Source of the DNA: Candidatus Omnitrophota bacterium
GTDB lineage: Bacteria; Omnitrophota; Gorgyraeia; Gygaellales; Profunditerraquicolaceae
Direction of reading: 5' to 3'
NCBI GenBank assembly: GCA_029561735.1
Contig: JAKQWZ010000064.1
Span: 67,583-111,553 of the forward strand
Length of the DNA stretch: 43,971 bases
Of the stretch, positions 31,270-34,366 are shown in pieces. The notes below the pieces were generated by a model. That model made no database searches and was not told the origin of the DNA. It worked only from the letters and a program-made list of their open reading frames with translations. A program made the translations under genes and the position numbers. Each line of letters opens with the position of its first letter. Within the stretch, counting starts at the first letter, position 1.

Positions 31270-32541
31270 TTAACTCAAAATATCGGCTTTATCCGACCTG
31301 ACCCGCGCGCTTGGCCGCAGCGGCGTAGGATTATCTTCGATCACCGTAGGCAGGCCCATCTTATCCAGCAAAGCGATAAAAGGATCCGGGTCAAGTTCTT
31401 CCACATTGACCATAGCCTTGACATCCCAATCGCCTCGAGCAATAAGCATTGCCGCGGCAACCGGCGGAACACCTGCGGTATAGCTTATTGCCTGCGATTC
31501 GACTTCCTTGTAGCATTCGGCATGGTCGCAGACATTATAAATAAAGATCTCTTTTCTCTTGCCGTCTTTCTTGCCTTTAAAATAATCTCCGATACAGGTC
31601 TTTCCGGTATAATTAGGCGCCAGGCTTGAAGGATCCGGCAAAAGCGCTTTTAATACTTTTAAAGGCACAACCTCTACTCCCTCGGCAGTCTTGATCGGCT
31701 TTTCCGAAGTCAGGCCCAGATTAGTCAAGACCGTAAATACATTAATATAGTGGTCGCCAAACCCCATCCAGAAACGGATACTGTTGGCTTCGATATTCTT
31801 GGACAAAGAATGCAGCTCGTCATGGCCGTTAAGATAGATCGGCTGTTTGCCTACAACCGGAAAATCATATTTCATCTTTATAGAATGGACTTTTTCTTCC
31901 ACCCATTTGCGGTCGATCCATGTCCAGACCTTTTTGAACTCACGGAAATTTATTTCCGGGTCAAAATTAGTGGCAAAATATTTTCCGTGGTTGCCCACAT
32001 TGACATCCATAATATCTATTGTATCAATCTTATCAAAATAATGTTTTACTGCCAGAGCGCAATAAGCATTGACCACGCCCGGGTCAAATCCACAACCTAA
32101 AATCGCAGTAATTCCTTTTTCTTTGCAAAGATCTTTGCGTTTCCACTCATAATTGGCATACCATGGCGGGTCTTCGCAGACTTTAGCCGGATCCTCGTGG
32201 ATGGCGGTATCCATATAAGCCACACCGGCTTTGATACAAGCCTCTAAGAGGGACATATTTACATAGGCCTGGGCCAGGTTGATAACTATTTCGGACTTCG
32301 TGTCCTTAATAAGCTTGACTGTAGCAGGTACATCCAAGGCATCTATCTGGCGGGAATATATTTTTTTGGACTTATCTTTTATATTATTTTTTCTTTTAAC
32401 ACTCTCAATTATCGCATCGCATTTTGCCTGTTTTCTGGAGGCAATACAGATATCGCCTAAAATGTCATTATTCTGCGCGCATTTATGCGCTGCCACATGC
32501 GCCACGCCGCCTGCGCCGACAATCAAAACATTCTTCTTCAT
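31270..32541 (-). CDS. Saccharopine-dehydrogenase-family carboxy(nor)spermidine synthase
   Basis: Carboxyspermidine dehydrogenase condenses a diamine such as putrescine with aspartate semialdehyde, using NAD(P)H. The Rossmann start is KKNVLIVGAGGVAHVAAHKCAQ. Family features include INLAQAYVNMSLLEACIKAGVAYMDTA and GCGFDPGVVNAYCALA. Immediate neighbourhood with nspC makes polyamine synthesis far more likely than lysine metabolism. The 423 aa include a ~20-residue tail. AGGAGAG precedes the ATG. nspC lies 24 bases upstream. Confidence 0.88.
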   Translation of the reverse strand: MKKNVLIVGAGGVAHVAAHKCAQNNDILGDICIASRKQAKCDAIIESVKRKNNIKDKSKKIYSRQIDALDVPATVKLIKDTKSEIVINLAQAYVNMSLLEACIKAGVAYMDTAIHEDPAKVCEDPPWYANYEWKRKDLCKEKGITAILGCGFDPGVVNAYCALAVKHYFDKIDTIDIMDVNVGNHGKYFATNFDPEINFREFKKVWTWIDRKWVEEKVHSIKMKYDFPVVGKQPIYLNGHDELHSLSKNIEANSIRFWMGFGDHYINVFTVLTNLGLTSEKPIKTAEGVEVVPLKVLKALLPDPSSLAPNYTGKTCIGDYFKGKKDGKRKEIFIYNVCDHAECYKEVESQAISYTAGVPPVAAAMLIARGDWDVKAMVNVEELDPDPFIALLDKMGLPTVIEDNPTPLRPSARVRSDKADILS

Positions 32542-32565: not shown

Positions 32566-33669
32566 TTATGACAAACTGCCCACAAAATCTTTATAAGTGA
32601 ATTTGCGTTCCAAATCAATCCGGCCATTCAGCCTTTTTACGGCTATTGAAGGCATCTGCAGCCCGTTAAACCAGTTCTTTTTAACCATGGTATATCCGGC
32701 TGCGTCGGAAAACCTGATGATACTGCCGGATTTTAACGGATGCCTGAAATTATAGGTCCCAAACACATCGCCGGCTAAACACGAGCGCCCGGCAACCATA
32801 TATTTATATTTACCCTTACCGCTATCGTTTATTTTGGCGTTTAAACGGTAAATCAGCAAATCCAACATATGGGCTTCGGCTGAAGCGTCAACAATAGCTA
32901 TATTAATCCGGTTGCGTACAATATCAAGCACTTTTGTCACCAGTTCGCAAGACTGGGTTATACTGCTTTCTCCGGGTTCAAGGTAAACCTGAACTTTAAA
33001 CCTGCGGCTGAATTCTTTGAGCCTGCGGCAGAGCTTATCCACAGGATAACCGGACCGGGAAAAATAGATTCCTCCCCCCAGGCTGACCCATTCCAAAGAA
33101 TCCAAAACATCTGCGTAATTACAGCTGATATAATCCAGATTTGCTGAAAGATTTTCAAAATCGCAGTTCTCACAGTTAAAATGGAACATGATACCGCTGA
33201 TCAAAGGCAGCACTTTTTGCATTTCTCTTTTATCTATGACTCCTAAACGCGAAAACTTACGCGCAGGATCTGCCAGATCAAAATACGAATAACTCACGCC
33301 CGGATTGACCCTCAGGCCTATCTCTTTGCCTTTAGCCAGCGGATAAAATTGCTTTAATTGCGATACGGAATTAAAGATCAGCTTATCAGATATCCTGCTG
33401 GCTGAGCTGATTTCGCTTTTTGAAAATGCCACGCAATAGCTATGGGTTTCTTTGCCGAATTTCTCATAGCCAAGGCGGGTTTCATAATATGAGCTTGAGG
33501 TAGTCCCGTCCATGTATTTTCTCATCAAAGGAAAAACGCTCCACGCCGAGAAACATTTCAAGGCCAGCAGAGATTTCGCTCCCGAACTCTCCCGGATATA
33601 CCGGATTATTTCAAGGTTTTTTAAGAGTTTTCTCTCGTCAATCAGGTAATAAGGCGTGTCTATATTCAT
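32566..33669 (-). CDS. nspC: Carboxynorspermidine/carboxyspermidine decarboxylase
   Basis: A PLP-dependent alanine-racemase-fold decarboxylase that makes (nor)spermidine from the carboxy-polyamine. The start is DTPYYLIDERKLLKNL. The PLP lysine lies in LLALKCFSAWSVFPLMRKYMDG. LGGGIYFSRSGYPVDKL, VYLEPGESSI and the cofactor-site GRSCLAGDVFGTYNF complete it. I prefer ATG 33669 (367 aa); the tracked ATG 33717 adds 16 residues and neither has a good ribosome-binding site. It is divergent from the speD homologue. Confidence 0.9.
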   Translation of the reverse strand: MNIDTPYYLIDERKLLKNLEIIRYIRESSGAKSLLALKCFSAWSVFPLMRKYMDGTTSSSYYETRLGYEKFGKETHSYCVAFSKSEISSASRISDKLIFNSVSQLKQFYPLAKGKEIGLRVNPGVSYSYFDLADPARKFSRLGVIDKREMQKVLPLISGIMFHFNCENCDFENLSANLDYISCNYADVLDSLEWVSLGGGIYFSRSGYPVDKLCRRLKEFSRRFKVQVYLEPGESSITQSCELVTKVLDIVRNRINIAIVDASAEAHMLDLLIYRLNAKINDSGKGKYKYMVAGRSCLAGDVFGTYNFRHPLKSGSIIRFSDAAGYTMVKKNWFNGLQMPSIAVKRLNGRIDLERKFTYKDFVGSLS

Positions 33670-33746
33670 GGCGGATTTATTATAATCAGGATTGGGCTGA
33701 TAAGCAAGAAAATTCATTTTGCCGGATAAAAAATTAAAAAAAATTA

Positions 33747-33779
33747 TTGACTTCCCTGAAAAAAGTTATACTATATATT
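33747..33779 (+). promoter_or_regulatory. Promoter region of the speD homologue
   Basis: TTGACT is followed after 16 bases by TACTAT, with an overlapping TATATT. Transcription would begin around 33781-33786. The leader is about 155 bases and contains a terminator-like hairpin. Confidence 0.6.
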
Positions 33780-33787
33780 CAGAATAG

Positions 33788-33859
33788 ATGAGCGAAAACA
33801 GAGGAAAAAAAGCTAATTTTGCCGGCCAGTATTTTATTTCGGGGCCGGTTTTTTACTAA
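33788..33859 (+). CDS. Possible 23-residue leader peptide spanning the terminator
   Basis: ATG 33788 opens a frame MSENRGKKANFAGQYFISGP... of 23 codons that runs through both arms of the downstream hairpin and stops at TAA 33857. There is no ribosome-binding site, but the ATG is within a few bases of the predicted transcript start, so leaderless translation is possible. Low certainty. Confidence 0.3.
   Translation: MSENRGKKANFAGQYFISGPVFY
33822..33854 (+). terminator. Intrinsic terminator (attenuator) in the speD leader
   Basis: CCGGCC, a 15-base loop, GGCCGG and six T's. It lies between the promoter and the gene, which is an attenuation layout. A second small hairpin, CCGTTT/AAACGG, lies just before the coding region. 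Confidence 0.65.
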
Positions 33860-33940
33860 ACAAAATAATAAAAGCAACATTAGGCGCCGTTTTAAATGAT
33901 AAACGGGCCTACACCTTCTGCGTTAGGAGAGAAAAACGAA

Positions 33941-34306
33941 ATGGATAAAGGTAAGCTATACGGATATGAGCTTGTTCTTGACCTCTATGATTGCAATCCA
34001 AATACTATCAGCTCAAAGAAAAAACTGCAGCAATATGTGGACAAACTATGCAAAGTCATAGATATGAAGAAATACGGCAAGACGTTCCTGCCTTATTTCG
34101 GCTTGAATGAGCCGCAGACTAAAGGTTATTCGCTGGTACAGCTGATCGAAACCAGCTCAATTACCGGGCATTTTTCGGAGTTATGGTGCGCAGCGCACTT
34201 GAATATATTCTCCTGTAAGACATTTGATAAGAAATTGGCTGAAAATTTCAGCAGGAAATTTTTCGGAGCAAAAAAAGTGGTCAGCCGCTGGCTAATAAGA
34301 AGGTAA
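33941..34306 (+). CDS. speD: SpeD homologue: pyruvoyl-dependent decarboxylase
   Basis: A small AdoMet-decarboxylase-fold protein of 121 aa from ATG 33941 (AGGAG 10 bases before). LYGYELVLDLYDCNP is the family start, and LIETSSITGHFSE aligns with the self-cleavage region (canonical ESH(L/I)(S/T)IHTWPE). The serine before SITGH is the likely pyruvoyl source, and NIFSCKTFD holds the conserved Cys. The processing motif is not canonical. The neighbouring carboxyspermidine genes do not need decarboxylated AdoMet. Family members are known to have become ornithine or arginine decarboxylases, which would supply the diamine here; that assignment is inference. Confidence 0.8.
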   Translation: MDKGKLYGYELVLDLYDCNPNTISSKKKLQQYVDKLCKVIDMKKYGKTFLPYFGLNEPQTKGYSLVQLIETSSITGHFSELWCAAHLNIFSCKTFDKKLAENFSRKFFGAKKVVSRWLIRR

Positions 34307-34323: not shown

Positions 34324-34366
34324 AAAACTGCTGTTCTTTCCGGAAGAAAGGGCAGCGGTTTTTTAT
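34324..34366 (+). terminator. Terminator between speD and the convergent esterase gene
   Basis: AAAACTGCTG..CTTTC and GAAAG..CAGCGGTTTTTT form a long stem with a T-run. It lies between two convergent genes. The A-run on the other arm would let it act for both. Confidence 0.8.

Follow-up and report, generated by a model that had tools for sequence, protein, structure and literature searches.

In the genome of an uncultured Omnitrophota bacterium, a probable speDC gene is preceded by a hairpin with a U-run (positions 33821–33854, plus strand) that plausibly acts as a lineage-specific attenuator of transcription. Whether this hairpin is a promoter-proximal intrinsic terminator that limits expression of the speDC-like gene is, in our estimate from the sequence, evenly balanced. 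The window analysed is a 44-kb stretch of this genome, whose sequence comprises 1.23 Mb and is 82% complete. Within the window, a 223-bp intergenic gap separates two divergent genes, an nspC-like gene on the minus strand and an AdoMetDC-family gene on the plus strand, and contains, from 5' to 3', a promoter-like site, a 23-codon ATG frame, the hairpin with its U-run, a second hairpin, and a Shine-Dalgarno sequence. The first three of these elements had been described in an earlier note, and all are present upstream of the speD-family gene; the span that the note covered, 33747–33940, also encloses the second hairpin (33881–33911), which it did not include. The note had read the arrangement as an attenuator with a leader peptide. 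From that reading we retain an intrinsic terminator that follows a promoter-like site and precedes the gene, but no sign of translation of the frame was found.

The hairpin has a 7-bp stem (GCCGGCC and GGCCGGU, 33821–33849) closed by a 15-nt loop, with a predicted energy of −12.2 kcal/mol, and the U-run extends up to 33854; the entire element lies inside the 23-codon frame. The loop is longer than usual. A comparable site, defined as a dG of −10 or lower with a tail score of at least 3.5, was found in 1 of 1000 dinucleotide shuffles of the gap. Both strands of the 44-kb window were also scanned strictly for a GC-containing stem followed by a U-run, and five terminator-like sites resulted: this hairpin, one site at the 3' end of the decarboxylase gene, one downstream of a tRNA gene, and two weaker ones inside genes. 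By its rarity the hairpin is a credible intrinsic terminator. Three of the five sites stand out, namely 33821–33854, the terminator that follows the decarboxylase gene, and the site behind the tRNA. Judging from the strength of the second of these (34326–34365, plus strand, −20.7 kcal/mol), intrinsic terminators are likely in use at the decarboxylase locus. Because the gap is divergent, no upstream gene needs the hairpin as its 3' end; it is positioned between the predicted promoter of the decarboxylase gene and the start of that gene, as in an attenuator, and is not the 3' end of another gene.

The predicted promoter is a sigma-70-like site (TTGACT-16-TACTAT, 33747–33774, plus strand) with 9 of 12 matches to the consensus; an alternative −10 element, TATACT, would leave a 14-nt spacer. 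Taken alone the score is weak and not above chance, as a scan of 2 kb returned seven sites of 9/12 quality compared to 4.2 expected. This site is the sole plus-strand promoter match inside the 223-bp gap, and no plausible second promoter was recognised between the hairpin and the gene, either in the promoter scan or when 33855–33925 was read by eye. At 33747–33775, the plus-strand −10 element overlaps a possible minus-strand −10 element (TATAGT or TATAAC) for nspC, and a divergent control region may be common to both halves of the polyamine pathway.

In the proposed mechanism, transcription would start at the 33747–33774 promoter, a share of the transcripts would end at the terminator after approximately 70–75 nt with the remainder reading through, and expression of the speDC-like (ornithine decarboxylase) gene further along would be limited by this early termination. 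When folding is compared with shuffles (z = −0.19), the 77-nt leader that runs to the terminator has no significant structure beyond the terminator itself, and the 40 nt ahead of the hairpin fold into nothing able to act as an antiterminator. A riboswitch-like antiterminator is unlikely because the 77-nt leader folds no better than shuffles, and, with no antiterminator fold ahead of the hairpin, a signal could act only through a protein, a pausing polymerase, or a coupled ribosome. Alternatively, there would be no sensor and termination would be constitutive. No Rfam family matched the window at gathering scores, and with E-values of up to 10 allowed for the leader, nothing above chance level appeared. 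The proposal that polyamine or amino-acid levels control read-through found nothing in its support. We count in favour of the terminator its rarity among shuffles (1/1000), the divergent gap, the unstructured leader, the lack of a second promoter, and a parallel in the Velamenicoccus clade described below; counted against it are the lack of conservation, the long 15-nt loop, and a promoter score at chance level. The same two elements could instead delimit a small noncoding RNA (approximately 33781–33856), in which case the SpeDC-like gene would be expressed by read-through or from an unrecognised promoter. The promoter-like site and terminator do make a compact 75-nt unit, but the absence of an Rfam match, of conservation, and of a recognised second promoter before the gene renders a small RNA rather improbable.

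The gene downstream of the gap (33941–34306, plus strand) encodes a 121-amino acid pyruvoyl decarboxylase of the AdoMetDC family that matches the Pfam AdoMet_dc model at 61.8 bits. Its earlier designation as speD is replaced here, as the protein falls below the cut-off for canonical SpeD (AdoMetDC; TIGR03330, 24.5 bits versus 75.65) and the SpeDC ornithine decarboxylases fit better. According to the paper on SpeDC (PMC10407285), these proteins are pyruvoyl ornithine decarboxylases with the diagnostic residues Gln, Thr, Phe, and Tyr, their gene clusters are linked with CASDH/CASDC, and one Omnitrophota member is placed among the group. In our own alignment with the residues named there, Ser72, His77, and Cys92 align with the catalytic S63, H68, and C83 of the Thermotoga maritima (T. 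maritima) protein, and three of the four SpeDC-diagnostic residues are present (Gln67, Thr71, and Phe78). The fourth position (Tyr) maps to His86, with His also found in the nearest relatives (L026 and L027), and variation in substrate with this apparent Tyr-to-His replacement is possible.

The genomic context is one of polyamine biosynthesis. Diverging from the SpeDC-like gene are an nspC-like gene for a carboxynorspermidine/carboxyspermidine decarboxylase (32566–33717, minus strand; TIGR01047, 408.6 bits with a cut-off of 409.05) and a carboxynorspermidine/carboxyspermidine dehydrogenase-like (CANSDH-like) gene (31270–32541, minus strand; NF043000, 496.6 bits with a cut-off of 800) encoding Pfam saccharopine dehydrogenase domains. 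The nspC frame as annotated probably starts too early, and its true start seems to be the internal ATG located 16 codons further on (MNIDTPYYLIDERK...). In many Omnitrophota, nspC and a dehydrogenase gene precede the SpeDC gene, matching the clusters described in PMC10407285. No spermidine synthase was identified, as judged by the lack of a PF01564 match in the 82%-complete genome. Based on the catalytic residues, the agreement at three of the four diagnostic positions, the lack of a detected spermidine synthase, and the nspC and CANSDH-like neighbours, the gene is probably speDC, encoding an ornithine decarboxylase, rather than speD. One divergent arginase-family protein is encoded elsewhere in the genome, so an arginine route is formally conceivable.

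The 23-codon ATG frame (33788–33859, plus strand; hypothetical translation MSENRGKKANFAGQYFISGPVFY) begins approximately 7 nt from the inferred transcription start, spans the whole hairpin, and ends 3 nt past the U-run. If it were translated, a ribosome on the frame could melt the hairpin in the manner of pyrBI, and translation or its pace would set read-through. In favour of this explanation, the frame covers the entire hairpin, only 3% of shuffles contain an ATG frame of 23 codons or more if the start is confined to the 20-nt segment by the start site, and the codon score is gene-like. However, a frame of this length is ordinary across the gap as a whole (17% of shuffles), and with only about 7 nt of 5' UTR the frame start has no Shine-Dalgarno sequence (duplex energy +0.2 kcal/mol); for comparison, −4 kcal/mol or better is reached by 53% of gene starts across the window and by 15% of random positions. 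Initiation directly at the 5' end of the transcript is nevertheless conceivable. The codon score is strong against mononucleotide shuffles (p = 0.0005), but 17% of dinucleotide shuffles equalled it, and it was nearly reached in the +1 frame and in one reverse frame. As dinucleotide shuffles and other frames score alike, the codon score reflects composition, and it was rejected as evidence for a translated frame. A search for homologues of the 23-amino acid peptide in 641 kb of related loci gave chance-level matches only, and the frame holds one Arg codon and no run of codons for one amino acid.

Timing also argues against a coupled ribosome. The frame has reached only nucleotide 34 where the hairpin stem begins, and its first 70 nt contain the terminator. 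In Escherichia coli (E. coli), ribosomes rarely catch up with RNA polymerase within the first 100 bp, and terminators in this part of a coding region for the most part escape ribosomal repression unless the polymerase pauses (PMC4824070). The suggestion that translation disrupts the hairpin is allowed by the geometry, but going by these E. coli data a terminator that starts 33 nt into the frame would usually come too early. In the Velamenicoccus clade, moreover, the 5' hairpin is kept while the ATG frame at the same place breaks. The leader-peptide part of the attenuator is not supported by these sequence comparisons, and we regard control of read-through by translation of the frame as improbable.

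The second hairpin (33881–33911, plus strand; UAGGC-G-CCGUUU paired with AAACGG-GCCUA) has 11 bp with one bulge and an 8-nt loop, and at −14.2 kcal/mol is more stable than the hairpin at 33821–33854. It lies 14 nt upstream of the Shine-Dalgarno sequence of the decarboxylase gene (AGGAGA, 33925–33930, plus strand, duplex energy −7.3), for which folding predicts a weak pairing of approximately 4 bp with CUUC at 33917–33920. An in-frame ATG (33896) sits in its loop. For the segment 33858–33943, z = −3.16 and 0 of 200 shuffles were equally stable. By these folding predictions the second hairpin could outrank the first in importance: together with the Shine-Dalgarno pairing it might be the real control, acting on translation, on mRNA stability, or at the DNA level as a palindrome recognised by a regulator, with the first hairpin secondary. 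Its greater stability and its position 25 nt ahead of the start region of the gene are consistent with such a role, but it belongs to no Rfam family, has no second copy in the genome, has no counterpart in the loci of relatives, and pairs with the Shine-Dalgarno sequence over only about 4 bp; overall we consider this explanation unlikely. Two further roles were considered for the second hairpin and rejected. As a repeated operator it would be expected in more than its single copy in its own genome, and as a minus-strand terminator towards nspC it is not canonical, since the U-rich stretch begins 7 nt past the main stem.

Conservation of the frame and the hairpin had been put forward as a check of the attenuator, and neither was found in any relative examined. 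The leader DNA gave only chance matches of 24–26 nt in 128 genomes of the order, and in 641 kb of related loci it gave no nhmmer match and only short chance blastn matches; the only Rfam families in 20 related loci were tRNAs. The closest relative (G029, 67% protein identity) shares the downstream neighbours of the SpeDC-like gene, a GDSL lipase gene and rlmN, and has a canonical speD-speE pair directly before its speDC copy, with a 5-nt gap after speE and no leader. This organisation, along with the lack of anything conserved, would fit an explanation in which neither hairpin is regulatory and the gap is neutral and recently rearranged, in a lineage that lost the speD-speE operon before speDC. 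A terminator-quality hairpin that arises in 1 of 1000 shuffles and is placed to interrupt the transcript is not readily reconciled with a neutral gap, which we hold to be quite improbable.

Returning to the terminator as the preferred explanation, we surveyed the leaders of approximately 38 non-operonic SpeDC genes, each preceded by a gap of at least 60 nt. A promoter-like site followed by a terminator was found only for the present gene, for L077 and L078 of the Velamenicoccus clade, and weakly for L106, which rules out this architecture as a general trait of SpeDC leaders. L077 and L078 have a comparable order of promoter, terminator, and speDC. The SpeDC leaders of this clade (L073:2764–3020, L077:642–945, and L078:2716–3020) have a conserved promoter, and in an alignment read by eye their 5' hairpin is kept with paired changes (GUCCCUGG/CCAGGGAC). 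Two of the three leaders contain further hairpins, the last of which forms a U6 terminator at a distance of 64 nt from the gene start. The ATG frame over the 5' hairpin varies across the three genomes, comprising 17 codons in one, more in another, and 4 codons in L077. The leader of this clade is best described as a candidate independent attenuator, an analogue and not a homologue of the one proposed here.

Other features were observed upstream of SpeDC genes in this set. In L039, L040, L042, L043, L056, and L028, the frame is open for approximately 50–87 codons upstream of the usual SpeDC start, which suggests an N-terminal extension or a fused leader frame in several Omnitrophota; a short S-[VI]-TDE-like motif common to L042, L039, and L056 was noted by eye. 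Short G-rich leaders (GGGGUGGGA...CCC) occur in L029, L030, L034, and L052, located 40–110 nt upstream of the SpeDC start; they may pair with the start region and match no Rfam family.

Premature termination as a means of control is well known in kind, and the present case is seen in one genome only, so its general weight is small. If the terminator works, it would offer an initial indication of how putrescine synthesis through a SpeDC-type enzyme is limited in an Omnitrophota bacterium; how SpeDC enzymes are controlled is not addressed in the available portion of PMC10407285. The practical value lies in a corrected gene name and in telling a credible hairpin apart from an unsupported leader peptide.

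Among known systems, the pyrBI leader (pyrL) of E. coli is similar in having its terminator inside a short leader frame, such that a coupled ribosome could suppress it. However, pyrL is a 135-bp gene that is genuinely translated and at which the polymerase pauses (PMC4824070, PMC5021804), whereas the present frame is 72 nt long with no recognised ribosome-binding site, no known pause, and no link to pyrimidines. Leaders of the trp/his type also combine a short frame with an intrinsic terminator upstream of a metabolic gene. Their leader frame ends more than 20 bp before the terminator (PMC4824070), whereas the frame described here runs through the terminator and is accompanied by neither a run of codons for a single amino acid nor an alternative antiterminator. 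The speF leader of Salmonella and E. coli (orf34/speFL) resembles the present locus in that a short frame precedes an ornithine decarboxylase gene, here a probable one. In the orf34 system, the frame has consecutive Arg codons, termination depends on Rho, and the ribosome-binding site of speF is masked by a structure (PMC6386406), in contrast to the intrinsic terminator, single Arg codon, unrelated sequence, and non-homologous decarboxylase found here; no conserved leader peptide with consecutive Arg codons was identified. We assign very little probability to the speculation that a peptide whose frame spans its own terminator links the progress of the ribosome to SpeDC read-through in Omnitrophota, which would parallel the speF leader independently and for a non-homologous ornithine decarboxylase. 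With the SpeDC enzymes themselves, as characterised in PMC10407285, the encoded protein shares, by our alignment, the catalytic Ser, His, and Cys and the diagnostic Gln, Thr, and Phe, and also the linkage to CASDH/CASDC; the residue that we map to the diagnostic Tyr is His86.
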